Positions 9,403 through 64,000 of a stretch of 64,000 nt of DNA are shown here, in pieces. The DNA is taken from NCBI GenBank assembly GCA_902786365.1, contig CADACD010000012.1, positions 62,001 to 126,000 on the forward strand, in the 5' to 3' direction. The stretch's first letter is position 1; every line of letters starts with the position of its first letter. The notes under the pieces are model-generated. The model searched no databases and was not told where the DNA came from. It saw nothing but the letters and a program-made list of their open reading frames with translations. Origin of the DNA: an uncultured Lachnospiraceae bacterium (lineage in GTDB: Bacteria; Bacillota; Clostridia; Lachnospirales; Lachnospiraceae). A program made the translations under genes and the position numbers.

Positions 9403-9504
9403 AAACATACATCCTTTCATAAATTCAGTATTCTATTATATTCTATCATAAAACATATTTATATGTCTAGGAATTTATAATTTTTTTCTAAATACTTCTC
9501 ATTT

Positions 9505-10368
9505 GCAATCCGAAATTCCACTTTGGTACAAACATGGCTGTTCTCTCCCGGCGGAATGGAGGATTTTCATGAGTAAACAAAGACATTTAACCATTGATGA
9601 AAAAATTGTTATTGAAACCGAACTTAGAAAAAGAAGTTCATTCAAATCTATTGGAACATTAATTGGAAAGGATTGCACCACTATCTCAAAAGAAATCAGA
9701 GCACACAGAACTTCCGAAAAAACAGGTGCTTTCGGAAAAGATTTTAATGACTGTCTTTATGATTTTAGACATTACTTTGCATGCGCAAGCATCATGAAAT
9801 GGTTAGATGAAGGCAAAGATATTGAATAAAACTGTTCAACATCTTCAAGTATATTTAAAAGAATTTCATCCTGAAATGAATGAGTGTCCTTTATTCTATA
9901 GTTTACTTGATGGAAGACCTCATAGATTATCAACAGATAGTATAATTCTAGTACTAAAATCAGCTGCTGATAAAGCAAGAGAAACCTGCAAGGCCATTGA
10001 ATTTGATTCACAGGGAAACCGGCGCACACAAATGTTTTATTGTGACGCAAATGCTCCTTACCAGAAGGGAAGCTGTGAAAATAACCATCACTCAGAATCA
10101 GTTCAGCCTTATGATGAGCCATATAAACTCGTATGCAAGGAAATCCCTTGGTAACAAAAGCCCTTATGAAATATTTGCATTTATGTACGATGAAGATCTG
10201 CTTAAAAAATTTGGTCTTCAATTTATTCCGGCAAATGATATCATACTTACGCCAGAACTTTTGAAATAATAAAACAAAAAATCAAAGATTAAAATAATAA
10301 AAACAAGCCGGGATCAGAAGTTATGCAGCCATCATAAGGACATTCACAGGGGTGGAATTTACAACTTC
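9505..10368 (+). mobile_element. Degenerate IS30-family insertion element
   Basis: Imperfect terminal inverted repeats sharing AAATTCCAC (9513-9521 on plus, 10352-10360 reversed) bracket a broken IS30-type transposase reading rightward, opposite to its neighbours. The element separates the two halves of the SipW cluster. Length about 0.86 kb, shorter than intact IS30 elements (about 1.1 kb). Confidence 0.7.
9569..10269 (+). pseudogene. IS30 transposase pseudogene with inserted tyrosine-recombinase fragments
   Basis: A good ribosome site (GGAGGATTTTC) precedes ATG 9569. The first 60 or so codons encode an IS30-type helix-turn-helix (HLTIDEKIVIETELRKRSS, IGKDCTTISKEIR). The frame then changes character to YDFRHYFACASIMKWLDEGKD and stops at 9829; this resembles the RH box of a tyrosine recombinase. 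An overlapping frame (9807 on) encodes another recombinase-like piece with CPLFYSLLDGRPHRLSTDS. It then continues without a break into an IS30 end, FYCDANAPYQKGSCENNHHS, and a final shift gives YARKSLGNKSPYEIFAF. The central DDE catalytic region is lost, so no active transposase can be made. Confidence 0.75.
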
Positions 10369-10642: not shown

Positions 10643-11506
10643 TTAGTCAACCTGCGTTACAGTAACATCAATTTGAATACCTGCAGTTAAATTATAAAGA
10701 GCAGGATTGACAGCAGGAATTTGTAACCAATCAAGATTCTCTTGATTCTTATCTTCAGTATAAGCTAAAATTTGTGAATTTGCTGCCAAATCGCCGAGTA
10801 ATGTATCTTCCTTATCATATGTCCCAGCACCTGATGCATCAAAATCCCACTCCCATGTAAGGTTAAGTGTACCAATCTCATCTGCCAAGTCAACATTGGC
10901 ATCTTTAGTTATTGTTAAAGCTTCAAGTGCAGTCTTAACTGCAGAAAGATTGCCATCATTTACAAGAGTAGTTGTTGTAGAACCTATCGTCTGAGTCAAT
11001 GTATACTTTATAGGATAATAATCAGCTGTTGGATTAAAGCAATCATTCACATTGCTTGTTGTAAGATTTGCATATGCTGCATTGGGATTTTCAATCTTCT
11101 TTAGATAAACATCTTGAACATTCGAAACAGCCACTGTTATACTAGTATTTACTTCTGGTGTTCCTGAAACAGCTAATGTAATTCCTTCTGTATTTTTTGT
11201 ACCTGGTGCAACAACCTTATCTTTTCCGTTAATACCTTTACTAGAACTACTATCAGTACTTGATACAACACTCAATGTTTCTCCTTGCGTTTTAGTTCCA
11301 GGCGTATTTACACTCTTTATGTAAGTATCCTCAAAGAGCGATCCACTAGCCTCAACTACCACACCAAACTTCGCAACCCTTGCGCTATCACTAGCACTAT
11401 CACCAGTCGTATACTTCGCAAATGTTCCTGCTGTCATACTTGTTGTGAGCATAGTCGCTACAAAAAGAGTACCTGCTACACGCATTGTTTTGTTTTTCTT
11501 TTTCAT
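10643..11506 (-). CDS. Secreted TasA/camelysin-like protein with SipW-type signal peptide
   Basis: The N-terminus, MKKKNKTMRVAGTL then a hydrophobic core ending TAGTFAKYTTGDSAS, has the form of SipW-cognate signal peptides: a core ending in Ala/Gly-Thr, then a region with Ala-Lys-Phe. The mature part of about 255 residues contains APGTKNTEG, LTWEWDFDASG and DTLLGDLA, typical of the TasA-like beta-sandwich. TasA proteins form extracellular fibres in biofilms. A SipW-type peptidase gene lies 53 bases upstream on the same strand. The function as a fibre protein is inferred from signal type and neighbour. Confidence 0.75.
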   Translation of the reverse strand: MKKKNKTMRVAGTLFVATMLTTSMTAGTFAKYTTGDSASDSARVAKFGVVVEASGSLFEDTYIKSVNTPGTKTQGETLSVVSSTDSSSSKGINGKDKVVAPGTKNTEGITLAVSGTPEVNTSITVAVSNVQDVYLKKIENPNAAYANLTTSNVNDCFNPTADYYPIKYTLTQTIGSTTTTLVNDGNLSAVKTALEALTITKDANVDLADEIGTLNLTWEWDFDASGAGTYDKEDTLLGDLAANSQILAYTEDKNQENLDWLQIPAVNPALYNLTAGIQIDVTVTQVD

Positions 11507-11559: not shown

Positions 11560-12267
11560 CTATTCTCCACCTGAACCGTCTTTCTTTCCTTCGGTTCTTG
11601 CAGCTTTCTCCTGCCTCAATTTTTCTAACTCCTCAAGCAATTCAGCCGTTTCTTTCTTCTCATTTTTCTCAATACGACTTCGACTGATAACATCATACAA
11701 AATGAATAAAACAAGTGGTAAAAAAACGCATACCGCAAGTCCCGGTATCGTTTGCATAAACAAAGCAACATCTCCGAGTTTTGGAACTCGCTTCTGATAC
11801 ATTCCCACTACCTTATCTCTTGTAATCAGCTTTGCATCCTCAATTATGTTGGCATCACCCTTTGTTCTGTAAGCGATATTACCATCATTATCATGTATCA
11901 CTTCCGTTACACGATGGGTTACAAGCGTTCCGCCCGGTTCGCCATCCCAAAAAGTGATAATATCATTTTCCTTAATTATGGTACTGTCGTTTACTATATG
12001 TACAATAATCAAATCACCAACCTCAATCGTACCGCTCATAGAACCCGACTGAACCATAAGAGGGTAATATCCGCCCATGTTAGGAAGTTCATCTTTTTCA
12101 AATGTATATCCTTTAAAAATCAGAACAAGATTAACTATCAGAACAGGAATCAGAATAACACATAGTATTATTCCAACAACAGTCAAACCTTTGCTTGATG
12201 AGTTACTTTCTTTTTTCTTATCTCCTAATTCTAAATTATCATTAGGGAAAACTTCAGATTTGTCCAT
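11560..12267 (-). CDS. SipW-type (archaeal/ER-like) signal peptidase I, copy 2
   Basis: 235 residues with an N-terminal membrane segment (about 28-52), the Ser box MVQSGSMSGTIEVGDLIIV, LVTHRVTEVI with the catalytic His, YRTKGDANIIED, a second membrane segment near 180-200 and a Lys/Glu-rich C-terminal coil. It is similar in plan to the peptidase at 7721 but clearly diverged. It is the first gene after a good promoter at 12358-12386 and is followed by its presumed substrate. Confidence 0.88.
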   Translation of the reverse strand: MDKSEVFPNDNLELGDKKKESNSSSKGLTVVGIILCVILIPVLIVNLVLIFKGYTFEKDELPNMGGYYPLMVQSGSMSGTIEVGDLIIVHIVNDSTIIKENDIITFWDGEPGGTLVTHRVTEVIHDNDGNIAYRTKGDANIIEDAKLITRDKVVGMYQKRVPKLGDVALFMQTIPGLAVCVFLPLVLFILYDVISRSRIEKNEKKETAELLEELEKLRQEKAARTEGKKDGSGGE

Positions 12268-12557: not shown

Positions 12558-13643
12558 TTATTTCGCCTGAATATATCCTTTTGCCTTAAGTAACTCTGCA
12601 CAGAGAACTGCACCACCTGCTGCTCCTCTTACAGTGTTGTGTGATAATCCTACAAATTTATAATCATAAACGCTGTCTTCTCTGAGTCTTCCAACAGAGA
12701 TACCCATTCCGTTTTCATAATCAACATCAAGATTTACCTGTGGTCTGTTGTCTTCCTCAAGATACTGTATAAACTGCTTTGGTGCACTAGGAAGTTCTAA
12801 CTCTTGCGGAACACCACTGAAGTTTACCATTTTCTCAATCAACTGTTCTTTTGTCGGTTTTTTCTTAAATTTTACAAATACTGCTGCTGTATGTCCATTT
12901 AATACCGGAACTCTGATACACTGTGTTGTAATCACTGGTGATTCTGCTTTCTTAATCACACCATCTTCAATTGATCCCCACAATCTTAAAGGTTCCTGTT
13001 CACTCTTTTCCTCTTCGCCACCAATGAACGGAATAATGTTGCCTTCCATCTCCGGCCAGTCTTTAAATGTCTTTCCTGCACCTGAAATAGCCTGATATGT
13101 TGTAGCAACTACTTCATATGGTTCAAACTCTTTCCATGCTGTAAGTACAGGAGCATAACTCTGAATAGAGCAGTTCGGTTTCACTGCCACGAAACCTCTT
13201 GTTGTACCAAGACGCTTTTTCTGAAATTCTATCACATCAAAATGTTCAGGATTAATCTCAGGAACAACCATAGGTACATCCGGTGTCCATCTGTGTGCGC
13301 TATTATTAGAAACAACAGGCGTCTCTGTCTTTGCATATGCTTCCTCAATCGCCTTTATTTCATCCTTTGTCATATCTACCGCACTAAATACAAAATCAAC
13401 AGTGGCAGCCACTTTATCCACTTCATTGACATTGAGAACAACAAGTTTCTTAACAGCTTCCGGCATAGGAGTTGTCATTTTCCAACGGTCTCCCACAGCT
13501 TCCTCATATGTCTTTCCCGCTGAACGTGGACTTGCTGCTACTGTGACAACCTCAAACCAAGGATGATTCTCAAGCAAAGAGATAAATCTCTGACCTACCA
13601 TTCCTGTTGCACCTAAAATTCCGACTCTTAATTTCTGACTCAT
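12558..13643 (-). CDS. asd: Aspartate-semialdehyde dehydrogenase
   Basis: Reduces aspartyl phosphate to aspartate semialdehyde with NADPH, the branch point to lysine, threonine and methionine. The NADP-binding GATGMVGQRF is at residues 11-20, and the catalytic Cys158 is in KPNCSIQ; the downstream RVPVLNGHTA carries the catalytic His. At 361 residues with an insert around EGNIIPFIGGEEEKSE it belongs to the longer archaeal/fungal-type group. Aspartate semialdehyde is also the substrate of the carboxyspermidine dehydrogenase encoded 3 kb upstream. It is expressed separately: tRNA-Thr and a folded element lie between. Confidence 0.95.
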   Translation of the reverse strand: MSQKLRVGILGATGMVGQRFISLLENHPWFEVVTVAASPRSAGKTYEEAVGDRWKMTTPMPEAVKKLVVLNVNEVDKVAATVDFVFSAVDMTKDEIKAIEEAYAKTETPVVSNNSAHRWTPDVPMVVPEINPEHFDVIEFQKKRLGTTRGFVAVKPNCSIQSYAPVLTAWKEFEPYEVVATTYQAISGAGKTFKDWPEMEGNIIPFIGGEEEKSEQEPLRLWGSIEDGVIKKAESPVITTQCIRVPVLNGHTAAVFVKFKKKPTKEQLIEKMVNFSGVPQELELPSAPKQFIQYLEEDNRPQVNLDVDYENGMGISVGRLREDSVYDYKFVGLSHNTVRGAAGGAVLCAELLKAKGYIQAK

Positions 13644-13792
13644 TTCATTACCTCACTTCTATATAATATTCCATTGTAGAACATATTTATCGTTTCCAAA
13701 CGTCATGTCCGTATATCGCGTACAACTGTTTGTGACGTATGTATACTATACCACAGATTTTTCAAATTGCAACTACTTTTTTCAAATTATTG

Positions 13793-13821
13793 TTGATTAT
13801 TTTTGTTTTTTCTTATATAAT
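13793..13821 (+). promoter_or_regulatory. Promoter of tRNA-Thr
   Basis: TTGATT (13793-13798) and TATAAT (13816-13821) with a 17-base spacer, ending 10 bases before the tRNA. Confidence 0.75.
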
Positions 13822-13831
13822 ACAGTGGTGT

Positions 13832-13904
13832 GCTGGAATAACTCAGGTGGTAGAGTAACTGATTCGTAATCAGTAAGTCGAGGGTTCGAGTCCCTTTTCC
13901 AGCT
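13832..13904 (+). tRNA. tRNA-Thr (anticodon CGT)
   Basis: A complete cloverleaf: acceptor GCTGGAA/TTCCAGC with discriminator T, anticodon stem ACTGA/TCAGT around loop TTCGTAA giving anticodon CGT (reads ACG), and TPsi loop GGTTCGAGTCC. CCA is not encoded. It is a single gene in the opposite orientation to its neighbours. Confidence 0.96.
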
Positions 13905-13920
13905 TTTTATATAAACGCAC

Positions 13921-14001
13921 AAAAAGATGTCATTTGTTTTCTGCCCCATTTTGTGGCATGGTATATATTACCATTAGAAAAGAGAACTTTGACATCTTTT
14001 T
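13921..14001. other. Folded element downstream of tRNA-Thr (terminator or small structured RNA)
   Basis: A perfect outer stem, AAAAAGATGTCA with TGACATCTTTTT, encloses two inner hairpins: TGCC..GGCA, and ATGGTA-TATAT-TACCAT. The whole could form a three-way junction. On the plus strand the outer stem ends in T and can terminate the tRNA transcript. It could also serve the minus-strand DHH gene in mirror orientation. Confidence 0.65.
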
Positions 14002-14052
14002 ATCATCTGACTGATGACAAATCCGATACCAAAGTCCTCTATAGAAAATTAT

Positions 14053-15078
14053 CTAATCTTTATAAGGACTGCGATTATAAAATTGTTTTTCATATTTCAT
14101 AACAGTATTCAAAAAATTATTCTCTATTATCTCCACCAGTTCATCTACTTTACTGTGGTCTTTCTTAAAAGGCACAAAACCTCCTGCCATGGCAGGGTGA
14201 CCGCCTCCGCCACCTATTCCTGCTAATGCTTCATTTGTCAATCTTCCCGCATCAAAGCATCCGTTATCGCTTCGAACAGATATCTTGATACCATCCACTT
14301 TAATAGAATATACGATGCATAAATCAACACCGGCTATCAACATCATAAAATCTGATATCGAAGCAACAAGTGGCTCCGGACAATGATTACCTGTATTGGC
14401 AAAGCTGATATTATCATATACCTTGATACTTTTAATCGCATTCGCATATGCATCCAAATCTTCAAATTCAACTGTACTTGACTCCAGCGAATTAATCAAA
14501 TCCATATCTGCCTTTGTATACAGTGAATAAAACATATTCAAATCCAGTTCTGAAACACCTCTTGAAAGATTTGCTGTGTCAACCTTTATTCCATACATCA
14601 GTGCTGTTGCCACATTTTTATGCATTTTTATATCATTTGCGAAATAATACGCAGCAATAATAGAAGCACATGCACCTACACTTGGCCGAATATCACAGAA
14701 CTTGTAGTCCACAAATCCAAATGAAGGATGATGGTCGATGCACATAGTAATGGGCACCTCTGTATTCTTCAGATTCGGGTTTCCCGCCTGTGAATCAACA
14801 AGAATAATTTCGCTTCCACTGTCCAATTCGCCTAATTCATCAATGTGTTTGATTCCTATATCTAATTGGTCACACATATTCCTCGTACTATACTTGTCAA
14901 TTCTTCCCTGGTAAATAATTGTACTGAATATATCTCTTGTCTCTAGGAGTTTCTGTAATCCAAATGCAGTTGATATTGCATCAGGATCAGGAAAATTATG
15001 AGTCTGAATATAGACATGCTCCCTATTGATATTTTCAAATAATATATCTAATCTTGTTTTTCTCTCTGCCAAATGCAT
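14053..15078 (-). CDS. DHH/DHHA1 phosphoesterase, NrnA-like
   Basis: DHH-family enzymes such as NrnA degrade nano-RNAs, pAp or cyclic-dinucleotide products. Motifs in order: HNFPDPDAIST, ILVDSQ, CIDHHPS and the C-terminal DHHA1 signature GGGGGHPAMAGG. About 341 residues, near NrnA length. The start is unclear: AGAGGG sits right before ATG 15078 and would better serve a TTG at 15072; an upstream TTG at 15087 is also in frame. It follows nspC by 150 bases and may be the last gene of the polyamine transcript or independent. The exact substrate is not decided. Confidence 0.85.
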   Translation of the reverse strand: MHLAERKTRLDILFENINREHVYIQTHNFPDPDAISTAFGLQKLLETRDIFSTIIYQGRIDKYSTRNMCDQLDIGIKHIDELGELDSGSEIILVDSQAGNPNLKNTEVPITMCIDHHPSFGFVDYKFCDIRPSVGACASIIAAYYFANDIKMHKNVATALMYGIKVDTANLSRGVSELDLNMFYSLYTKADMDLINSLESSTVEFEDLDAYANAIKSIKVYDNISFANTGNHCPEPLVASISDFMMLIAGVDLCIVYSIKVDGIKISVRSDNGCFDAGRLTNEALAGIGGGGGHPAMAGGFVPFKKDHSKVDELVEIIENNFLNTVMKYEKQFYNRSPYKD

Positions 15079-15229
15079 CCCTCTCAATCATTGCCACTAT
15101 TCTCGATTAAGATACTCTTTTTTCCCTTTTCAGTGTATTCTTAATTCTTATTTCTTAACCTTTGATTATCCGATTACAATTCACATAACTCATATATGAT
15201 AGTATACATGATTTATCATTTTTTATCAA

Positions 15230-16435
15230 TCATAACCTATTCTTAAAATCTTCGTACCCAAACTTCTTGATAATTTTGATTCCTTCTTTATCTTTGTATG
15301 CAATCGCCGGAAGTCTCATTCCATTAAAGGTGTTCGTCTTAACCATGGAATAAATAGCCATATCCTTAAATGTAAGTCTGTCACCTATTTTCAGGTCTCT
15401 ATCAAAAATATAATCACCTATTACATCTCCCGCCAGACATGTTGGACCACCGATTCTGTACAATTTAAATGTTTCTTGTTCTTCCATCATGCTTTTAACA
15501 GACAAATCTTTGTCATAAGTTTCTCCGCCTGCTGCCACTATTCTGACCGCTTCTGCCAGCTGTGGTGTATAAGGCATCTCTATCACATCCGGCATATGAC
15601 ATGCCGCTGATGTGTCAACTATTGCAATATCAATCCCATTACTTACTATATCTAAAACTGTTGATATCATAAAGCCTGCATCAAGCGCCACAGCCTCCCC
15701 CGGCTCCAGATATACTTCCAATCCATACTCTTCTTTCATCTCATTAATACAGTCTACCAGACATTCTATATCATAATCTTTTCTTGTAATATGATGTCCG
15801 CCTCCAAAATTAATCCATTCCATTTCTTTTAATACATCAGAAAACTGTTCTTTTACTGATTTGATTGTGGTAAGCAAGTCATCTGAATTTTGTTCACATA
15901 ATGTATGAAAGTGAAGTCCTGATATTCCTTCAAGATTTTCCCTGTCAAAATTTTCATTTGTGATACCCATTCTGGAATATGGTGCACACGGATCATAGAT
16001 TGCATGACCTTCCTGTGTAGAACACTTCGGATTGATTCTAAGGCCACATTTGATATCCTTTTTTTTCGCCTTGTCTTTAAACCTGTTCCACTGTGAAAAC
16101 GAGTTAAATACGATATGATCACATATATCAAGCAGTTCATCAATTTCGTCATCTCTGTATGCTGCACTGTATACATGAGTTTCCTTTCCAAAATATTCTT
16201 TTCCGAGTTTTGCCTCATACAGTCCGCTCGCTGTCGTTCCTGACAAATATTTTGAAAGAAGAGGATATGTGTGATACATGGAAAAACATTTTTGTGCAAG
16301 CAGAATATGACAGCCTGTCCTGTCTATCACGTTTTTCAATATTTCAAGATTTTTTTTTAACAATTCCTCTTCCACAACAAAACATGGGGTTGGAACTGTA
16401 TTATAATCATATATCTTACCTTTTTCCATCTGCAT
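15230..16435 (-). CDS. nspC: Carboxynorspermidine/carboxyspermidine decarboxylase
   Basis: A PLP-dependent, alanine-racemase-fold decarboxylase that turns carboxyspermidine into spermidine (or the nor-form). Features: PTPCFVVEEELLKKN at the N-terminus, PLP Lys49 in LLAQKCFSMY, GLHFHTLCEQ, the glycine-rich INFGGGHHIT, and IGGPTCLAGDVIGDY with the active-site Cys. The start at ATG 16435 has AAAGGA 9 bases upstream; an ATG at 16453 is in frame but lacks a site. It follows the dehydrogenase by 54 bases, so substrate and product genes are consecutive. Confidence 0.93.
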   Translation of the reverse strand: MQMEKGKIYDYNTVPTPCFVVEEELLKKNLEILKNVIDRTGCHILLAQKCFSMYHTYPLLSKYLSGTTASGLYEAKLGKEYFGKETHVYSAAYRDDEIDELLDICDHIVFNSFSQWNRFKDKAKKKDIKCGLRINPKCSTQEGHAIYDPCAPYSRMGITNENFDRENLEGISGLHFHTLCEQNSDDLLTTIKSVKEQFSDVLKEMEWINFGGGHHITRKDYDIECLVDCINEMKEEYGLEVYLEPGEAVALDAGFMISTVLDIVSNGIDIAIVDTSAACHMPDVIEMPYTPQLAEAVRIVAAGGETYDKDLSVKSMMEEQETFKLYRIGGPTCLAGDVIGDYIFDRDLKIGDRLTFKDMAIYSMVKTNTFNGMRLPAIAYKDKEGIKIIKKFGYEDFKNRL

Positions 16436-16489
16436 TACACCGTATCCTTTCATTTCATTTTTGATTTTATGGCTATTGAATTACTTTTC

Positions 16490-17692
16490 CTAATCAACCA
16501 ATACAGGATTAAAATCCTCTTCCCAAGGAAGTCCCCACTTATTCAGTGCTTCCATAAACGGATCTGGATCAAATTCTTCTATGTTGAACACTCCCGGTCC
16601 TTTCCATGTTCCATTCATAATCAGCATTGCACCTATCATGGCAGGTACACCTGTTGTATAGCTGATTGCCTGTGAACCGACTTCTCTGTAACATTCCTGA
16701 TGGTCACATATATTATAGAGATAATATGTTTTTTCTTTTCCGTCTTTTATTCCTCTGAAAATACATCCGATATTCGTCTTTCCTACAGTTCTCGGTCCCA
16801 GTGATGCCGGATCGGGGAGTACCGCTTTTAAAAATTGAAGTGGAACTATCTTCTTGCCTTCGAATTCAATCGGTTCAATCGATGTCATTCCCACATTTTC
16901 AAGGCATTTCAGGTGTGTTAAATAGCTCTGCCCAAATGTCATAAAGAAACGTATCCTTTTGATTCCCGGAATATGAATACCTAATGATTCCAATTCTTCA
17001 TGATGCAGAAGATACATATCTTTTTTTCCGACTCCCTTAAAATCGTATTCTCTTTTTATTTCCATAGGTTTTGTCTCAACCCATTTTCCTTCTTCCCAGT
17101 AACTTCCATTTGCAGATACTTCCCTGATATTTATCTCCGGATTAAAATTGGTAGCAAAAGGATAACCATGGTCACCACCATTACAGTCAAGAATATCAAT
17201 ATAATGAATCTCATCAAATTCATGCTTTAAGGCGTATGCACTAAACACTCCTGTCACACCCGGATCAAATCCGCTTCCAAGAAGTGCTGTAATCCCTGCC
17301 TCTTTGAACTTTTCTCTGTATGCCCACTGCCATTTATATTCAAACTTCGCTGTATCAAGCGGTTCATAATTGGCAGTATCCACATAATTTGTCTTTGTCG
17401 CAAGACAGGCGTCCATGATTGTCAAATCCTGATAAGGAAGTGCAAGATTCAATACCACATCCGGCTGAAAAGATTTGATAAGCTCTATCAATTCATCAAC
17501 ATTATCTGCATCAACCTTTGCAGTATGAATGATGGTACTTGTTTTATTCTGTAACTTTTCCTTAAGTGCATCACATTTGCTCTTTGTTCTGCTCGCAATC
17601 ATAATTTCCGTAAATACTTCACTGTTCTGACAACATTTGTGTATGGCAACACCTGCCACACCTCCACAGCCTATAATTAACGCTTTTCCCAT
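16490..17692 (-). CDS. Carboxynorspermidine/carboxyspermidine dehydrogenase (saccharopine dehydrogenase family)
   Basis: Condenses putrescine (or diaminopropane) with aspartate semialdehyde and reduces the imine with NADPH to carboxyspermidine. The Rossmann motif IIGCGGVAGVAIHK is at residues 7-20; DPGVTGVFSAYALKH, DILDCNGGDHGYPFATNFNPEINIR (split here as two family blocks) and GSQAISYTTGVPAMIGA follow the pattern of Lys1-like carboxynorspermidine dehydrogenases. It has 400 residues, with ribosome site AAAGGA upstream. Which diamine is used cannot be told from sequence; agmatinase next door makes putrescine the likely one. Confidence 0.9.
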   Translation of the reverse strand: MGKALIIGCGGVAGVAIHKCCQNSEVFTEIMIASRTKSKCDALKEKLQNKTSTIIHTAKVDADNVDELIELIKSFQPDVVLNLALPYQDLTIMDACLATKTNYVDTANYEPLDTAKFEYKWQWAYREKFKEAGITALLGSGFDPGVTGVFSAYALKHEFDEIHYIDILDCNGGDHGYPFATNFNPEINIREVSANGSYWEEGKWVETKPMEIKREYDFKGVGKKDMYLLHHEELESLGIHIPGIKRIRFFMTFGQSYLTHLKCLENVGMTSIEPIEFEGKKIVPLQFLKAVLPDPASLGPRTVGKTNIGCIFRGIKDGKEKTYYLYNICDHQECYREVGSQAISYTTGVPAMIGAMLIMNGTWKGPGVFNIEEFDPDPFMEALNKWGLPWEEDFNPVLVD

Positions 17693-17736
17693 TTTATCAA
17701 ATCCTTTCTTTTATCTACATTTTTATTTATATAATT

Positions 17737-18585
17737 TTAATATACTGCCAGCAAAAGTTCTCTCACAATCTTGCATGCCACTGCTGTCGATGTTCCTGAC
17801 AAATCAAGATTCGGTGCCAGTTCATTGACATCCATTCCGACAATTTTTAATTTCGATACTTTAATGACTGCGCCAAGCAAGTCCATAAATGACACCCCGC
17901 CTGCCTCCGGTGTACCTGTTCCCGGAAATACCGAAGGATCCAATACATCTAAATCTATCGTAAAATAAACAGGTTTATCTGCAATTTCCTTTATCGCTTC
18001 ATCCAGTCCCTCAAAATTATATTTATTTAATTTTGTGTGTTCCTTTGCCCAGTAAAATTCTTCTCTCTCCCCACTACGTATTCCAAACTGGTATATTCTG
18101 TCATCTCCTATTATATCCCATATTCTTCTTATTACCGATGCATGTGAAAGTCTCACACCAAGATATTCTTCTCTCAAATCTGTATGTGCATCAAAATGAA
18201 TGACTCTGACATCAGGGTATTTTTTTAACACTTCCCTGAATGCTCCGAGCGTCACAAGGTGTTCGCCACCTATCATACACGGTATTTTACCAGCATCAAG
18301 TATTATCTTTGTCTTCTCTCCTATCATATCAAGGGCAGTTTCAGGATTTCCAAAAGGAAGCTCAATATCGCCTCCGTCAAAAACACGGATATCTGTAAGG
18401 TCTTTATCCTGGTATGGACTGTATGTTTCAAGTCCAAATGACTCACTCCTGACAGCCTTGCTTGCAAATCTTGTTCCCGGTCTGTAAGATGTTGTTGAGT
18501 CAAAAGGTGCACCGAATATCACAATTTCAGCCTCTTCAAACTCCGACTCACATCCGATAAAAGTCTCTATGTTTTTATTCCACAT
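17737..18585 (-). CDS. speB: Agmatinase
   Basis: Hydrolyses agmatine to putrescine and urea. The binuclear manganese ligands of the ureohydrolase fold are all present: His109 in GGEHLVTLG, Asp132/His134/Asp136 in DAHTDLREEYLG, and Asp211/Asp213 in DLDVLDPSVFPGTGTPE. 282 residues, normal length. Its start overlaps the end of speE by 11 bases, so the two are translationally coupled. With the decarboxylase at 19446 it forms the arginine-agmatine-putrescine route. Confidence 0.93.
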   Translation of the reverse strand: MWNKNIETFIGCESEFEEAEIVIFGAPFDSTTSYRPGTRFASKAVRSESFGLETYSPYQDKDLTDIRVFDGGDIELPFGNPETALDMIGEKTKIILDAGKIPCMIGGEHLVTLGAFREVLKKYPDVRVIHFDAHTDLREEYLGVRLSHASVIRRIWDIIGDDRIYQFGIRSGEREEFYWAKEHTKLNKYNFEGLDEAIKEIADKPVYFTIDLDVLDPSVFPGTGTPEAGGVSFMDLLGAVIKVSKLKIVGMDVNELAPNLDLSGTSTAVACKIVRELLLAVY

Positions 18586-19426
18586 CTCTTAATAATTCCT
18601 CCACATAATTTGGCAGTGCAAATGCACCTACATGTAATCTTGTATTATAGTATTTTGTCTTAATGCCCAGCATATCCCACTTTGTTCCATCAAAATCTCG
18701 TGTCGGATGATATTTCTTAGAGGAAAATCCAAACAGCCAGTGTCCTGATGGATAGGTCGGAATATGTGCCTGATACACCTTGCTGATTCCAAAACTTTCC
18801 ACTATTTTTTTATGTGCTCTTTGCATTGCCAATGAATCATCTTTATAAAACGGACTTTCATGCTGGTTCACAATAATCCCATCACTTTTTAAAGCCTTGC
18901 AACAGTTACCATAAAATTCTTTGGTAAAAAGTCCCTCTCCTGGTCCGAACGGGTCCGTTGAGTCAACAATAATAAGATCATACTTATCCTCACAAGTCCT
19001 GACATATTTGAGTCCGTCCTGGTACGTGATATGAACCCTCTCATCATCAAGACAACATGAGGTAAATGGCAGGTATTTTTTGCAGACTTGCACAACTAAT
19101 TCATCAATCTCTACCATATCAATATTTTCGATGGTATTGTATTTGACAAGTTCTCTGACAACACCGCCGTCACCTGCGCCTATCACCAATACATTTTTCA
19201 CGCAAGGATGCACTGCCATTGGCACATGAACCATCATTTCATGGTATATAAACTCATCTTTTTCTGTCAACATCATATATCCGTCAAGTGTTAAAAATCT
19301 TCCGAACTCTTTTGATTCAAACACATCTATTCGTTGAAAATCACTCTGTACACTGAATAATTGTTCGTTTACCTTGATTGAGAATTTTACATCCGGTGTA
19401 TGACATTCCGTAAACCATAATTCCAT
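18575..19426 (-). CDS. speE: Spermidine synthase
   Basis: Transfers aminopropyl from decarboxylated SAM to putrescine. The methyltransferase-like fold shows the GAGDGG motif at residues 83-88, the acidic pair in the VDSTDPFGPGEGLF segment (Asp155, Asp158) and the N-terminal LTLDGYMMLTEKDEFIYHEM substrate block. The start at ATG 19426 is preferred because AAGGAGG lies 7 bases upstream; the open frame continues 11 codons further. 283 residues. It overlaps speB by 11 bases. Confidence 0.94.
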   Translation of the reverse strand: MELWFTECHTPDVKFSIKVNEQLFSVQSDFQRIDVFESKEFGRFLTLDGYMMLTEKDEFIYHEMMVHVPMAVHPCVKNVLVIGAGDGGVVRELVKYNTIENIDMVEIDELVVQVCKKYLPFTSCCLDDERVHITYQDGLKYVRTCEDKYDLIIVDSTDPFGPGEGLFTKEFYGNCCKALKSDGIIVNQHESPFYKDDSLAMQRAHKKIVESFGISKVYQAHIPTYPSGHWLFGFSSKKYHPTRDFDGTKWDMLGIKTKYYNTRLHVGAFALPNYVEELLRDVE

Positions 19427-19445
19427 TTTAAGTCCTCCTTGTATA

Positions 19446-20900
19446 TTATGCATTCTCATCTACAATATTTAAATTTTTGATTTCTATGTCCTGTGGACCT
19501 GTCATAAAACAGCCCTTTTGTTTTGCGTAACTGATATAGTCAAGAATTTCCCTTGTGATCATTTCCCCAGGTGCCAGTATTGGAATTCCCGGCGGATAGC
19601 ACATGACAAATTCACCACATATCATTCCTTCTGTCTCCTCTAACCTGACAGATTTTTTTTCAGCAAAAAACGCCTGTTTCGGCGACACACAGACAATAGG
19701 ATTAATGTATTCATGATCCATCATTCCGCTTTTTTCTTTTCCAAATCTTCTTCGAATCTCGGAAAGTGCACTTGTAAGTCTTTCTATTTCTCTTTCTCTG
19801 TCACCAACTGAAATATAGGCAAGAATGTTATCCAAATCTCCAAATTCAATCTGAATGTCATATTCATCCCTAAGCAGGTCATAGACTTCTATTCCTGCAA
19901 GACCGACTTCAAATGTATTAATCGAGAGTTTGGTAATATCAAAATCATACACCGAATCACCGTTAATTATCTCTTTTGAATATGCATAATAATCACCTAT
20001 GCTGTTAATTTCATCTCTCGCATACTGTGCTAAATGACACACTCGTTCAAAGATTTCTTCTCCTTTCAGTGCAAGATTTTTTCTCGATATATCAAGGCTT
20101 GACAACAAAAGATAACTTCCACTTGTCGTCTGTGTCAGATTGATAATCTGCCTTACATAGTCCGGATTCACATCTTCTCCCATAAGCAGGATGGAGCTTT
20201 GGGTAAGACTTCCTCCTGACTTGTGCATACTAACTGAGGCAAAATCGGCTCCTGCCTCCATAGCCGATACCGGAAGTCTGTCACTGAAATAAAAATGAGT
20301 TCCATGTGCCTCATCTGCAAGAACTTTCATCCCATGCTCATGTGCAATCTTCACTATTTTCCTGATATTAGAACAAATTCCATAATAGGTAGGATTGTTA
20401 ACCATGACTGCTTTTGCATCAGGATTGGCTTTTATCGCACTCTCAACATCGGCCACAGACATTCCAAGCGCAATTCCAAGTCTCTTATCCGCGTCAGGAT
20501 TTACATATACCGGAATAGCGCCACTCAACACAAGTGCATTAATTGCACTTCTGTGTACATTCCTTGGCATGATAATCTTATCTCCTTCTTTACATGTCGC
20601 AAGTATCATTGTCTGGACTGCTGACGTTGTCCCTCCTACCATAAAAAATGCATTTTTTGCTCCAAACGCATCTGCTGCCAATTCCTGCGCCTTTTTAATA
20701 ACTGAAACAGGATGACAGAGATTGTCTAACATTTTCATAGAATTAACATCCACTGACATACAGTTTTCTCCAAGAAATTCTGTAAGTTCCGGGTTTCCTT
20801 TGCCATGCTTATGTCCCGGAACATCAAACGGAACAATTCTTTCTCTTTTCATTTTTTGTAATGCCTCATATACCGGCATCTCATTCTGATTCAATTTCAA
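19446..20900 (-). CDS. Orn/Lys/Arg decarboxylase family protein, probable arginine decarboxylase
   Basis: A fold-type I PLP enzyme of the short Firmicute SpeA/YaaO type (about 484 residues). DEAHGTHF (about residues 196-203) and the PLP Lys227 in SVSMHKSGGSLTQSS are visible, along with NPTYYGICSN. Arginine is the likely substrate because agmatinase follows; lysine or ornithine cannot be excluded from motifs alone. The start is a TTG: either 20900 (AGAGGG 7 bases upstream) or 20918. It lies between speD and speE with short gaps on both sides. Confidence 0.9.
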   Translation of the reverse strand: MKLNQNEMPVYEALQKMKRERIVPFDVPGHKHGKGNPELTEFLGENCMSVDVNSMKMLDNLCHPVSVIKKAQELAADAFGAKNAFFMVGGTTSAVQTMILATCKEGDKIIMPRNVHRSAINALVLSGAIPVYVNPDADKRLGIALGMSVADVESAIKANPDAKAVMVNNPTYYGICSNIRKIVKIAHEHGMKVLADEAHGTHFYFSDRLPVSAMEAGADFASVSMHKSGGSLTQSSILLMGEDVNPDYVRQIINLTQTTSGSYLLLSSLDISRKNLALKGEEIFERVCHLAQYARDEINSIGDYYAYSKEIINGDSVYDFDITKLSINTFEVGLAGIEVYDLLRDEYDIQIEFGDLDNILAYISVGDREREIERLTSALSEIRRRFGKEKSGMMDHEYINPIVCVSPKQAFFAEKKSVRLEETEGMICGEFVMCYPPGIPILAPGEMITREILDYISYAKQKGCFMTGPQDIEIKNLNIVDENA

Positions 20901-20933
20901 CTTATTACCCTCTGCCAATTAAACTTTTATTAT

Positions 20934-21728
20934 TTAATATATATTATTTCCACTAAATATCTCTATCATCTCACGCCGTAAGCTGTTTGTGATTTCAAGT
21001 CTCTGCTTCGGTGGCAATTCATACACATCTGTATTAAAAAGATAATTTTGTAAATCAAGCTCTTTAATCAACATCTTTGTGTGAAAAATGTTCGACTGAT
21101 ATACATTGACATCCATTGCATCATATCTCTGCAAAGTCTCATTTGAAATATAATCCTGGATAGATGTAATCTTGTGGTCAATAAATATCTTTTTACCATC
21201 TAAATCTCTTGTAAATCCTCTGACCTTGTAATCCATTGTGATGATATCAGAGTCAAAACTTCCAATCAGATAATCAAGAGCCAAAAGAGGAGTAATCTCC
21301 CCACATGTCGCAACATCGATATCTACCCTAAACGTTGCAATACTTGTCTCAGGATGATACTCAGGATATGTGTGGACTGTAACGTGACTCTTGTCAAGAT
21401 GTGCCACTGTCGCATCCTTTTTTGAAATAATTTCACTGCTTAAGTCACCACTTCTTGCACCAAACATTTTTTCTTCTGCCATTAAAATCGTGACACTAGC
21501 CCCCTGAGGATCATAATCCTGCTTAGATACATTCAAAACATGAGCACCTATTATCTCTGTAATATTACACAAAATCTTCACCAGACGTTCCGAATTGTAC
21601 TGTTCATCTATATAAGAAACATAATCCTTTTGCTCTCTTTCTGTTTTTGCATAACAAACATCATAGATATTAAAGCTCAATGATTTAGTCAGGTTATTAA
21701 ATCCATAAAGTTTTAATTTATCGCTCAT
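20934..21728 (-). CDS. speD: S-adenosylmethionine decarboxylase proenzyme (SpeD, enterobacterial type)
   Basis: Makes decarboxylated SAM, the aminopropyl donor of SpeE. The proenzyme cleaves itself before Ser114 in [13 protein letters not shown] to form the pyruvoyl cofactor. Other family blocks are [36 protein letters not shown] (two adjoining blocks) and VRGFTRD. The start at ATG 21728 has GGAG 6 bases upstream and gives 264 residues, exactly the E. coli SpeD length; ATG 21740 has no site. It is the first gene of the polyamine operon, behind a leader with a terminator. Confidence 0.94.
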
Positions 21729-21750
21729 CTTCTTCTCCATTCACAGTTAA

Positions 21751-21788
21751 TATAAAAAAATCAAGTGCCACTTCACAACACTTGATTT
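21751..21788 (-). terminator. Leader terminator/attenuator just before speD
   Basis: AAATCAAGTG pairs with CACTTGATTT (11-base loop), followed on the minus strand by TTTTTTTA. It ends 23 bases before the speD ATG, so it must be bypassed for the operon to be expressed. ACACTTG in the upstream leader (plus 21910-21916, complement) can pair with CAAGTGT of its first arm and would prevent it from forming. Confidence 0.75.
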
Positions 21789-21922
21789 CATACTAATTGC
21801 TTTATTTATTCCTGAATATTCATTACCAAAATCTTCATTTATTTATTCAATATAGCGTTTAGAGTCTATATAGCAAGAAATTACTTTTACTACTCTTATT
21901 GATTTTTAACAAGTGTGTACCA

Positions 21923-21986
21923 CTATTCAAAATAATTTCCGCAAGACCAACGCATGCGTCCTTGTACGAATATCTCTTTCATACAT
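21923..21986 (-). other. Possible upstream short ORFs in the speD leader
   Basis: Two overlapping 19-codon frames begin at ATG 21986 and ATG 21982 and stop at 21927 and 21923. The first, MYERDIRTRTHALVLRKLF, has four Arg codons (AGA, CGT, AGG, CGG). The second ends in MRWSCGNYFE, whose internal ATG follows AAGGA. The predicted transcript start lies almost at the first ATG, so translation of it would be leaderless. No proof that either is translated. Confidence 0.3.
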
Positions 21987-21991
21987 GTCAG

Positions 21992-22021
21992 ATTATATAA
22001 TAAAACCACATTCTTTGTCAA
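21992..22021 (-). promoter_or_regulatory. Promoter of the polyamine operon
   Basis: TTGACA (22016-22021) and TATAAT (21992-21997) on the minus strand, 18-base spacer. The predicted transcript starts near 21985 and has a leader of about 255 bases before speD. Confidence 0.8.
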
Positions 22022-22089
22022 TACGTTTTCAAACAAAATATATGGGTTTACGTTCAAGTACTGACCTATTAATATTAACTAGTAACACT

Positions 22090-24357
22090 TTAATAATACT
22101 CTCTGATTTCTACATCTGTATAGAAAAACTTTAATATCTCTTCATAGTTTTTCCCCGATGCTATCATATTTTTCACTGCTGTCTGGCTCATGCCGGCACC
22201 ATGACCGAAACCTCCTCCGTAGAATTTGATACCTCCATCCACTTTTTCAACTGTAAAAAAGGCACTTGGTATTGAAGAAAATGTGTTGATAGATGTTCCA
22301 TCATGTTTGTGAATATCTATCCCATATGGATTAATAATATTTCGTATCACAGACTGTTTGAGGACTTTGATAACTGCCCTATCTCCCTCAATCGTCATTT
22401 CATCAATCACGCCTCCGCACAGTCTTTTGTCAATGATGATATTATTGACATTTCCTATATTTTCAATATATTCAGCCGCAAATGAACCATCCTGTTTTTT
22501 CACTAAAATTTTATCAGGATTTTGTTTGCACATTGAACCAAGATTTTTATTAATACTGTCTGAAAGCTGTCCTGATGTCATGGTAAAATCCCATCGGTAC
22601 CAGGATGTATCGCTGTCATATGTCTGAAAATCTGACTTTATAAATGCACTAAACTGTTCATTGTCTTCCAAATCAATATCACAGTCTGCATCTGTTAGCA
22701 ATTTTCCCTTCACATATGGAAGTCCGTCTGCTCCCCATATGGTGGCATCTGTTGTACTTCCACATGATGTTGCAAAAAAATAGGTGTTGGCAATTTCATC
22801 TCCATAGCTTAACACTTCCCCATATGTCTGATCGACAGCTTCAATAGTAGTTTCATTCTCTTTTGTATTATTATATACCTGATAATTTGTACTGTCATCC
22901 ACCTGTGCACCATATACACTTAATTGATTATCACTTAAGTGACTTATTGCATAGCTTCTTGCACATACAGCCTGAACCTTTAATGCCTCTGTCCCATATG
23001 ATGTCGGCATTTCACTTGGCACTACAGCATAGAGATATTTCTCTAACGAAATATCATTGATGATAACTAGTTTTCCATCATAATTTGAGATTTCTATCGT
23101 TCCCCTATACTCAGGACTACTATTATTTCTGCTGATGGAATGAATCGTTGTTTTTCCATTTTCATCTACCGGAGTTACCTTTATTCTTCCGTATTTCAAT
23201 CTTTCATCATTCGGCTCAATCTCCACCGCCTCTTCCGGCTCATGTACTGTCACATTTTCCTCTCTGTCCCCGGATTCATTCATTTCATAATAGCTAAGTT
23301 GATATTTTCCCTGACATGAAAGTGATACATGATTATGAAAAAAACTCTCATATCCTGTACTTTTTAGTAACACTCTGATATTCTTTTCATTTTCATCATT
23401 CTTTAAGATGGCTGCACATATGATTTTATCGGCAACTACAAAACGAACTCTCTCACTTCCGACAACCACAACGCCTTTATCACTCTGCTCATAATTTTTA
23501 TAACCAATATAGTATCTGCATTTTTCTGATAACAAAATTTTCCCATAACCTTCTATCTCGATTCCATCATCAGCAATTGCAAGTACTTTTCCTGCTATAT
23601 AGTCTCTTTTTAAAATCAGTCTGTTCACTTTTCCGTCCAAAAGTTTAATATCTGCCACGACATTTGTAAGATTTTCATTTAGGCCGGTTGCCACAAATGT
23701 TCTCTCACTTCCATTCAGAACCACTTTGATATTCTCCCCATCAGTCTCCTTAATCAGTACATTTTCATACAGATTGTCAGATTTTTGTACAGAGCTAATA
23801 TATATAATAGTTTCGCCTCTCACAACAGCATTTGCCACAGTATCTCTGCTTACATATTTTTTTACACTTTTATCACCACCAAAATAGGTATATATCTTTT
23901 CATTAGAAACAACCATATCTGTTTCTTCTCCCTCTATCACTTCATATACACATATTTCTTTTTCCTCTACTGTATCTTTTAAACCGTTTGACTCTATAAT
24001 GGTTCTGACAATCTCAAGCCACTGCTGTCTTGTGAGTTTTTTGTCTGACCCGTATTCATGATAAATACTATCTTTCACATCATTTTCAATTCCTATTTTC
24101 TCTAGAATAAGCTTAATATTATCTCCCTTCATCTGCATTCCGGCATATTCTTTTTTAATATCACTTATATTCACAATTTCTTCATCGAAAAGCATATTGA
24201 TGGAATACATTCCCTCTGCGACAGAAAGTTCAATATTTTCTGAAACATATTGCTTTTTCTTTTTTCCTTCATATACCATATATATGGTTCCTGCTACGAA
24301 TATGACTGCCATTAAGATAAAAATAAGTTTTACATTCACTTTTTTGTTCTGTTTCAT
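22090..24357 (-). CDS. SpoIID/LytB domain protein, membrane-anchored
   Basis: A large secreted or anchored protein (about 755 residues, membrane segment at about 8-28) with a C-terminal SpoIID domain: LEKYLYAVVPSEMPTSYG, ALKVQAVCARSYAISHL, FFATSCGSTTDA and the final GGGFGHGAGMSQTAVKNMI. SpoIID is a lytic transglycosylase acting on peptidoglycan during engulfment. This protein is roughly twice as long, with an unassigned beta-rich N-terminal half, so it may be a vegetative homologue (LytB-like modifier). ATGs at 24363 and 24357 are both possible; AGAGG is 9 bases before the second. The stop is about 70 bases upstream of the speD promoter. Confidence 0.87.
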   Translation of the reverse strand: MKQNKKVNVKLIFILMAVIFVAGTIYMVYEGKKKKQYVSENIELSVAEGMYSINMLFDEEIVNISDIKKEYAGMQMKGDNIKLILEKIGIENDVKDSIYHEYGSDKKLTRQQWLEIVRTIIESNGLKDTVEEKEICVYEVIEGEETDMVVSNEKIYTYFGGDKSVKKYVSRDTVANAVVRGETIIYISSVQKSDNLYENVLIKETDGENIKVVLNGSERTFVATGLNENLTNVVADIKLLDGKVNRLILKRDYIAGKVLAIADDGIEIEGYGKILLSEKCRYYIGYKNYEQSDKGVVVVGSERVRFVVADKIICAAILKNDENEKNIRVLLKSTGYESFFHNHVSLSCQGKYQLSYYEMNESGDREENVTVHEPEEAVEIEPNDERLKYGRIKVTPVDENGKTTIHSISRNNSSPEYRGTIEISNYDGKLVIINDISLEKYLYAVVPSEMPTSYGTEALKVQAVCARSYAISHLSDNQLSVYGAQVDDSTNYQVYNNTKENETTIEAVDQTYGEVLSYGDEIANTYFFATSCGSTTDATIWGADGLPYVKGKLLTDADCDIDLEDNEQFSAFIKSDFQTYDSDTSWYRWDFTMTSGQLSDSINKNLGSMCKQNPDKILVKKQDGSFAAEYIENIGNVNNIIIDKRLCGGVIDEMTIEGDRAVIKVLKQSVIRNIINPYGIDIHKHDGTSINTFSSIPSAFFTVEKVDGGIKFYGGGFGHGAGMSQTAVKNMIASGKNYEEILKFFYTDVEIREYY

Positions 24358-24537: not shown

Positions 24538-24792
24538 CAAAAAAATAGAGCCAATCTGGCATTGCTGCCAAATCAGCCCTACTCTCATATCACCAAAATG
24601 CCGGTTCCTGCGATTCTGAGTCCTAGCAACGCTAGGTGGGTTACCGCATTCAGTCTTCTGTGGTCCACTCGATGGAGGCTTCACATCATTCTGAAGATAA
24701 TAGGAATCCCAATTCAAAAATGTAGGTTCAAAAAAACAGGAGTTGTCGCACATTCCAGAAAATATGATTACCTAAATCTATTGATTTATGTT
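24538..24792 (-). ncRNA. Small structured RNA, probable 6S RNA
   Basis: A promoter (24799-24827) and a strong terminator define a transcript of about 255 bases that codes for nothing convincing. The terminator is TAGGGCTGATTTGGCA, loop GCAA, then its partner and a T-run at 24539-24545. Inside, AATGT/GCATT and TCCTG/CAGGA can close a long imperfect helix, with a CCTAGC-GTT-GCTAGG hairpin in the middle and an open central region, as in 6S RNA, which binds RNA polymerase in stationary phase. I recognise the general look of Clostridia 6S but cannot confirm it; that it is an RNA gene is much surer. Confidence 0.65.
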
Positions 24793-63687: not shown

Positions 63688-63971
63688 TAAAAAATCCCTT
63701 ATGACAAAATAAGCCATAAGGGACGAATATTCTCGCGGTTCCACCCTGATTATACAAAATCCGTAATGCCATTCACCACACATTCAAGCCCACACAAAAC
63801 TCAATTGTACAAATCCTAACATCACTTTATTTTATATCTCTCATTGAATGATAACGGAATCACCGGACCGGATTGGGGTCACTCAGAGGTAGTCTTCAGT
63901 ATCACTCCAATAAGATGCTCACAGCATACACATCTCTCTCTGAACCTTCTGTGATACTTACTCGTCTCGTC
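63688..63971 (-). promoter_or_regulatory. T-box riboswitch of thrS
   Basis: The minus strand carries AGGGTGGAACCGCG (63734-63747), the T-box that binds uncharged tRNA acceptor ends. A terminator follows, TCCCTTATG..CATAAGGGA (63695-63723) and a T-run. The upstream part to 63971 can form stem I, with a likely specifier ACC (63888-63890), a Thr codon. Uncharged tRNA-Thr would favour read-through into thrS. The 5' end and promoter lie at or beyond the window edge. Confidence 0.93.
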
Positions 63972-64000
63972 AACGTATTTTCATATTTTTTTATTTCAAC

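Follow-up and report, generated by a model that had tools for sequence, protein, structure and literature searches.

The stretch of DNA analysed here, 64,000 nucleotides from an uncultured Lachnospiraceae bacterium (assembly GCA_902786365.1, contig CADACD010000012.1, positions 62,001 to 126,000; hereafter the window), carries a polyamine gene cluster of six genes that spans 15230-21740 on the minus strand with intergenic gaps of -14 to +44 bases (Table 1). Read in the direction of transcription, profile matches identify genes for an S-adenosylmethionine (AdoMet or SAM) decarboxylase (speD), an arginine decarboxylase homologue (speA), an aminopropyltransferase (speE), an agmatinase-family ureohydrolase (speB), a carboxyspermidine dehydrogenase (CASDH) and a carboxyspermidine decarboxylase (nspC; the enzyme is abbreviated CASDC). 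The compact grouping of speD, speE, the dehydrogenase gene and nspC with genes for an arginine decarboxylase homologue and SpeB thereby bears out the central claim of the original prediction, which had been made by reading the DNA. A predicted promoter stands approximately 250 bases upstream of speD (22021-21992), and the six genes are probably transcribed from it as one operon. Two polyamine-lengthening chemistries in a single operon are already known as a combination, and the window provides a further example.

Table 1. Features of the window that are discussed in the text, the operon and its leader region first
Feature	Coordinates	Strand	Evidence
Sigma-70-type promoter (predicted), TTGACA-18-TATAAT	21992-22021	minus	Ahead of speD; sole 12/12 match among 49 promoter-like sites in 13600-22500
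Leader RNA, trimmed copy	21861-21935	minus	Covariance model R1 (window not in training), 45.3 bits, E 1.3e-5 over 51 sources
Terminator-like hairpin and T run	21757-21789	minus	Directly before speD; 15-pair stem, AT-rich, 3 G-C pairs
speD, E. coli-type pyruvoyl AdoMet decarboxylase	20934-21740	minus	TIGR03331, 422.5 bits (cut-off 255.8), over
speA, short AAT-fold Orn/Lys/Arg decarboxylase homologue	19446-20918	minus	PF01276, 249 bits, over Pfam cut-off
speE, aminopropyltransferase	18575-19459	minus	NF002010, 392.9 bits (cut-off 260), over
speB, agmatinase-family ureohydrolase (agmatine or N1-aminopropylagmatine)	17737-18585	minus	TIGR01230, 283.8 bits (cut-off 174.3), over
CASDH/CAPADH, carboxyspermidine / carboxyaminopropylagmatine dehydrogenase	16490-17692	minus	Best model NF043000, 418.8 bits, under cut-off 800
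nspC (CASDC/CAPADC), carboxyspermidine / carboxyaminopropylagmatine decarboxylase	15230-16453	minus	TIGR01047, 502.8 bits (cut-off 409.05), over; PDB 9eaf, 3n29
DHH/DHHA1-domain protein, NrnA-like	14053-15087	minus	Far under NrnA cut-off; adjoins the operon, not a member
asd	12558-13643		
Signal-peptidase-like open reading frame (presumed)	11560-12267	minus	Name from reading the translation
Secreted TasA-like open reading frame (presumed), beside the preceding one	10643-11506	minus	Name from reading the translation
IS30-transposase-like fragments (presumed)	9503-10269	plus	Names from reading the translations
6S RNA	24586-24764	minus	Rfam match
T-box leader	63716-63982	minus	Rfam match

Translation of speD likelier starts at the ATG at 21728, directly after GGAGAAGAAG, and SpeD has the 11-residue segment around its presumed processing serine. 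The product of speA is 490 aa long, the length of the short 'ancestral' form of AAT-fold decarboxylases (PMC8503589), and no NCBIfam decarboxylase model scores over its cut-off; it is presumably an arginine decarboxylase, and the short form also covers ornithine and lysine decarboxylases (PMC8503589). The best solved structure for SpeB is 3lhl, a 'putative agmatinase'. By profile score, the dehydrogenase is homologous to the carboxynorspermidine synthase of NF043000, yet is not assigned to that equivalog. Its solved relatives are PDB 4rl6, 4ina, 8deb (a carboxyspermidine dehydrogenase) and 8h4z; the His-Glu-Glu catalytic triad of BfCASDH, which is kept in 4rl6 (PMC10413350), is present in the window enzyme, and its LLHHEE segment aligns with 4rl6. 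Profile searches of the whole genome gave one match each for nspC and CASDH, and two far weaker Spermine_synth matches besides the operon's SpeE.

The operon proved shorter than first proposed. An extent of 14053-21728 had been given, and while the six genes stand, they run from 15230: the segment 14053-15087 is the DHH-family gene, 142 bases downstream of nspC. The aspartate semialdehyde gene asd had been placed 3 kb away; the distance, counted from the nspC stop codon, is 1.6 kb, an interval that holds the DHH gene and, between that gene and asd, a tRNA. We rejected both genes as operon parts, as neither was matched in any of 57 fetched relative loci (0/57), a set in which not all loci hold the whole cluster and flanks reach a few kb or are cut by contig ends.

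The six genes themselves recur together. An E. coli-type SpeD scored over cut-off in 17 genomes of the same family, in 16 of them on the CASDH contig and at a distance of no more than 5 kb; of the 17 loci surrounding this SpeD, 11 hold all six genes in the window's order, and the arrangement is therefore beyond chance. At one locus without speB (L059:7073-9238), genes for agmatine deiminase and N-carbamoylputrescine amidase follow nspC.

A hybrid pathway that uses both aspartate semialdehyde and decarboxylated AdoMet (dcAdoMet) has been described for genomes with both modules (Li et al. 2025, PMC11999265). Gut species that carry both include Blautia hansenii (PMC11999265), and Clostridium leptum has the same gene neighbourhood (PMC10413350). 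The window's genome likewise has CASDH, CASDC, an AdoMet decarboxylase and an aminopropyltransferase. We consider it reasonably probable (roughly 0.6) that the window operon encodes this hybrid pathway, with CASDH and CASDC acting mainly on agmatine, SpeB releasing spermidine, and SpeD and SpeE probably making spermine. By its family, the decarboxylase would convert arginine to agmatine. Judging from the biochemistry of related enzymes, CASDH would then join aspartate semialdehyde to agmatine, CASDC would decarboxylate the product to N1-aminopropylagmatine, and SpeB would strip off the guanidino group to yield spermidine. SpeD would provide decarboxylated SAM, from which the canonical SpeE would add an aminopropyl group, most likely to spermidine to give spermine, agmatine being another possible acceptor. 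Agmatine is the favoured start because the arginine decarboxylase homologue stands beside both CASDH and nspC. The CASDH/CASDC pairs of C. leptum and D. desulfuricans turn agmatine into N1-aminopropylagmatine (PMC11999265), and the earlier view that this branch begins at putrescine is probably wrong where an arginine decarboxylase is present. Of the two purposes suggested for a double route, two different end products is the better, matching the published biochemistry of the same modules: the aminopropyltransferases of D. desulfuricans, L. buccalis, C. leptum and H. ochraceum, four of the five tested, make spermine (PMC11999265). The operon probably gives two products.

The residues of SpeE are consistent with this assignment. 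Mapped to T. maritima numbering by motif and spacing, a correspondence of our own, the window SpeE has Y76, H77, D101, E121, D170, S171, T172, D173 and Y239, together with a Glu at 206 as in other relatives that have SpeD. In related enzymes (PMC6514230, PMC4356361), H77, D101 and D170 correspond to residues that bind the amine of dcAdoMet, D170 acting as the base, and Y76, Y239, D173 and E206 correspond to the lining of the putrescine groove, so that the residues holding the amine and ribose of dcAdoMet and putrescine are all present (Y76, H77, D101, E121, D170, D173, E206, Y239). No inactivating change was found among the SpeE and CASDH residues checked, the other enzymes being judged by profile scores and reading. 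An Asp in motif 2, a Glu at the presumed motif 3, and DGG make up the pattern of spermine synthases (PMC11107197, section 10), and spermine appears the likelier SpeE product. Several points weigh against the hybrid pathway as we draw it. T. maritima SpeE shows the same spermine-synthase pattern and made spermidine only, so the pattern is not diagnostic. The aminopropyltransferase of Sporomusa ovata, from a hybrid genome, gave spermidine and no spermine detectable by liquid chromatography-mass spectrometry (LC-MS) (PMC11999265). In vitro, the purified CASDH of C. leptum accepts putrescine as substrate, and agmatine is absent from the kinetic substrates in the available part of that report (PMC10413350). 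Finally, the role of SpeE in this operon family is not solely dcAdoMet-dependent, because relatives keep SpeE without SpeD.

The distribution of these genes was surveyed in 150 genomes of the window's family (one per genus, the window's own included) and in 291 genomes of its class, counting strong CASDH matches only (weak NF043000 matches, in 4 of 68 family and 8 of 89 class genomes, were left out) and scoring SpeD as absent from profile searches of draft genomes. Within the family, 64 genomes have CASDH, 64 have SpeE over cut-off and 24 have any AdoMet decarboxylase. All 24 of the last group also have CASDH and SpeE, which argues that dcAdoMet chemistry accompanies the aspartate route in this family. 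The expectation that bacteria mostly carry one route or the other consequently fails within the family; it fares better across the class, where SpeD occurs without CASDH in 59 of the 125 genomes with SpeE. SpeE is present in 63 of the 64 CASDH genomes of the family, yet 39 of these 63 have no detectable AdoMet decarboxylase, and completeness is listed as at least 90% for 36 of the 39. One family genome has CASDH without SpeE, and one (G089) has SpeE without CASDH or SpeD. Across the class, 47 genomes have CASDH, SpeE and SpeD, 17 have CASDH and SpeE only, and two have SpeE alone, one of them (G368) with a partial SpeD match. SpeE without SpeD is concentrated in CASDH genomes (17/64 versus 2/61 of those without CASDH; Fisher p 2.9e-4, kinship ignored). 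CASDH, for its part, does not need SpeE, because CASDH without SpeE is frequent outside the family: 17 of 81 class CASDH genomes have no SpeE over cut-off, two of these with SpeD.

We compared the active site of SpeE in genomes with and without SpeD, taking H77, D170, S171, T172 and Y239 as the canonical state and omitting G006, G396 and G221 (fragmented, of low completeness, or with two SpeE copies) from the counts of state. The site is canonical in all 50 SpeD+CASDH rows, in which the catalytic positions are invariant (window included; 48 of 60 eligible genomes, 12 being left out), and in all eight rows read from the 59 genomes with SpeD and no CASDH. Where CASDH occurs without SpeD (56 rows from 55 genomes of both samples), it is non-canonical in 54 of the 55 genomes, as against 0 of the 48 with SpeD. 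Among 57 SpeD-less sequences, G089 and G230 included, H77 is replaced by D or N in 44, E206 by G in 44, and Y239 by C, S or F in 28; position 122 is not Ile in 51 and position 152 not Asp in 25, while Y76, D101, E121 and D170 are unchanged in all 57. The open reading frames remain full length (59/59 at 281-318 aa, counting G396, G230, G089 and a repeated G007 locus). The median ratio of nonsynonymous to synonymous substitution rates is 0.14 both in seven SpeD-less pairs (one outlier at 2.1) and in six SpeD pairs, an underpowered comparison.

Three SpeD-less loci depart from this pattern. L068, from a genome (G144) that is 99% complete, has CASDH and no AdoMet decarboxylase match, and its SpeE, among the nearest rows to the window's, is nearly canonical and the lone canonical case among the 55 genomes; L140 (G230) has a canonical SpeE with neither SpeD nor CASDH; and L227 has a canonical SpeE and no speD on a short contig. 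In G221, which has two SpeE proteins, the copy beside SpeD is canonical and the copy beside CASDH is changed (L138, L139). Genomes with only a B. subtilis-type SpeD were kept apart: their SpeE is altered in 8/8, and in seven of the eight (all but G100) a separate and long SpeE is found no more than 3 kb from this SpeD. The large SpeD of P. aeruginosa is termed class 1a and the small SpeD2 class 1b (PMC11107197). A SpeE tree built without the main active-site columns has five changes of SpeD state and five of canonical state; as it is midpoint-rooted, any 'loss' of SpeD is inferred. An independent-pairs test found three supported pairs only, which puts significance out of reach. The change in SpeE without SpeD is therefore a strong pattern built from few events.

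The same association extends to Streptococcus. A scan with a streptococcal CASDH stretch gave at least 590 loci, of which the best 80, all of them named and a set thus drawn by CASDH similarity, were examined with approximately 15 kb around each. SpeE was readable in 75: 67 are altered with no local speD, seven are canonical with speD, and one, on a short contig that shows no speD, is canonical. Once nine duplicates of sequences from the earlier samples are set aside, the counts become 58, 7 and 1; three of the nine come from genomes that hold a B. subtilis-type SpeD at another site. Exact DNA identity also ties genomes of the family group to named Lachnospiraceae-type records, among them Coprococcus catus (L248 = G025) and Lachnospiraceae bacterium C.4_2 (L276 = G130), which points to Lachnospiraceae as the window's family. 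In every one of the 17 Streptococcus loci, SpeE has N77, its loop reads NDATDP and Y239 is replaced. The long type of CASDH (approximately 419 residues) also stands beside SpeD and a canonical SpeE (L220-L222, L225, L228, L233, L238), which argues that the state of SpeE follows SpeD rather than the CASDH type. In pneumococcus, no enzyme that makes dcAdoMet is annotated and speE is held to matter for spermidine, and no measured metabolite differed significantly in a speE mutant (PMC7531197); the presence of speE without speD there has been noted as a puzzle (PMC7531197, PMC7990898).

In gut Clostridia and in Streptococcus alike, SpeE without SpeD stays beside CASDH and shows similar changes in its donor and acceptor pockets; this is our strongest lead outside the original question. 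Our search of titles and abstract openings, in which subscription literature is thinly covered, found no description of altered SpeE in bacteria lacking SpeD. We put at a little under even the chance that SpeE in this operon family has a dcAdoMet-independent job tied to CASDH and CASDC, as a partner, a regulator or an enzyme with a different donor. Two candidate activities were considered for the altered proteins. The conserved D101 is, we assume, the aspartate that repels the carboxylate of SAM. A SAM-using 3-amino-3-carboxypropyl transferase, whose product would be that of CASDH, is not favoured, because D101 is kept in 57/57 while I122, at a position with a reported role in adenine stacking, and D152 often change. 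A putrescine N-methyltransferase is likewise disfavoured by the retention of D101, as the plant switch to that activity began with a D to I change at this place (PMC3725402).

For the window itself, the best-surviving alternative to the hybrid pathway builds on this lead: SpeE would serve both a dcAdoMet-dependent role and a second one with CASDH and CASDC, as a partner or regulatory subunit or as an enzyme with another donor or acceptor, and the SpeD-less relatives would have kept only the second. The frequent absence of AdoMet decarboxylase beside CASDH and SpeE, the near-complete split in active-site state, and the full-length frames with Y76, D101, E121 and D170 intact speak for it. On the other side, the independent events are few, the substitution ratios come from seven usable SpeD-less pairs, CASDH evidently persists without SpeE, a straightforward change of donor to SAM is disfavoured, and nothing shows a second role for the window's canonical SpeE. 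We regard this alternative as tentative, somewhat less probable than the general proposal of a dcAdoMet-independent job.

Many relatives, ranging from Lachnospiraceae to Streptococcus (L065, L046, L042, L224, L206 and others; L224 is from Roseburia inulinivorans, whose operon lacks speD), have in common a long, conserved and structured RNA element upstream of the operon, followed in many loci by a terminator-like hairpin. Its 5' end matches RF02440 in seven of the eight loci first searched and five of eight named loci; among four Streptococcus loci searched, three scored under the Rfam threshold and only L218 reached it. RNAalifold on the whole leader (15 sequences) gave little covariation, and the 3' module was therefore modelled alone, as a covariance model (R1) of the leader's 3' 125 positions built from 19 sequences. 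R1, whose E-values are rough, matches 29 of 51 sources (19 being the training sequences) and leaves 22 without a match; it also matches 30 of 34 named loci searched, three of the 30 repeating loci of the first set. In an alignment of 47 matches, whose fitting to the model favours such figures, standard pairs fill 94.4% of the pair cells, and 10 of the 24 pairs vary at both positions; 0 of 500 shuffles reached these pairing and covariation values, and pairing falls to 26-53% when the partners are slid. The copy in the window is trimmed, and R1 has no second match in its genome at E up to 1. RF02440 (SpF59) is absent from the window's leader, with no match at the gathering score of 37.2 nor at E up to 1 in 21700-22200, and an Rfam search there returned chance-level matches only. 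The hairpin before speD is one of seven terminator-like sites found, with 3.5 expected by chance. Leader and hairpin would probably attenuate the operon, and the leader RNA is a candidate polyamine-responsive switch. The pneumococcal small RNA (sRNA) SN20/srn235/F59, reported at up to approximately 320 bases, lies between SP0915 and SP0916 (speA), and a terminated leader would be the simplest reading of that site.

The remaining alternatives fare less well. Both branches could lead redundantly to spermidine alone, with SpeE as a spermidine or N1-aminopropylagmatine synthase and the branches differing in whether SAM or aspartate supplies them. The S. ovata enzyme is a precedent from a genome with both modules, and sequence motifs cannot surely separate spermidine from spermine synthases; yet the other four of five tested enzymes from hybrid genomes made spermine, and redundancy alone leaves unexplained why no sampled family genome has an AdoMet decarboxylase without CASDH (0/24), although 59 genomes of the class sample do combine SpeE and SpeD without it. 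We judge redundancy unlikely. Less probable still is that the operon is losing its SAM branch, the aspartate route doing the work with SpeD and SpeE as passengers: SpeD presence changes several times among relatives, the L068 genome carries a nearly canonical SpeE with no AdoMet decarboxylase match, and the window's leader is itself trimmed, but speD, the first gene of the operon, and speE, the third, are both full length, and SpeE catalytic positions are invariant wherever SpeD and CASDH co-occur in our rows. The other purpose originally suggested, a switch between SAM and aspartate as the aminopropyl source for one product, fits the presence of both donor routes in one cluster but found no support here and is very improbable, as the six genes, closely spaced on one strand behind a single leader, would in the simplest case switch as a unit, and scans gave no strong internal promoter or terminator, only consensus-level matches near chance.

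The operon, read as a hybrid pathway, extends a recently described system and fits the idea of spermine-making gut Clostridia. New here are the retention and alteration of SpeE without SpeD and the leader RNA that extends RF02440. The SpeE pattern offers a concrete test for the acknowledged puzzle of pneumococcal speE without speD (PMC7531197). If SpeE works without dcAdoMet, 'spermidine synthase' annotations would be wrong in many gut and oral bacteria, and if that work is tied to CASDH and CASDC, it would account for the retention of speE in pneumococcus in the absence of speD. The window operon keeps the complete version (SpeD, canonical SpeE and CASDH/CASDC), in which both SpeE functions would then be open to side-by-side study.

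Among known systems, the spermidine riboswitch, a SAM-I variant (PMC10853860), resembles the leader in lying upstream of polyamine genes with a transcription terminator, but Rfam searches of the window and of 16 relative loci found no SAM-I match. RF02440 (SpF59 or ldcC RNA; the pneumococcal sRNA above) corresponds, in part of the loci, to the 5' end of the same leader; Rfam models 54 nt, whereas the leader described here runs approximately 125 nt further, and would recast the published sRNA as a terminated leader. The streptococcal operon without speD (PMC7990898, PMC7531197) shares the order speA, speE, CASDH, nspC in 17/17 loci, and R1 matches all 14 Streptococcus loci searched; it differs in that no speD or speB was found in the 17 loci and in the SpeE active site, changed in every one. 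With the carboxyaminopropylagmatine route of Synechocystis sp. 6803 (via PMC11999265), the window shares the set of dehydrogenase, decarboxylase, ureohydrolase and arginine decarboxylase, and the window itself also has SpeD and SpeE. The closest counterpart is the hybrid pathway (PMC11999265). There the leader RNA goes unmentioned in the available text; the two have in common CASDH/CASDC, AdoMet decarboxylase and aminopropyltransferase in one genome and, with C. leptum, an AAT-fold arginine decarboxylase homologue.

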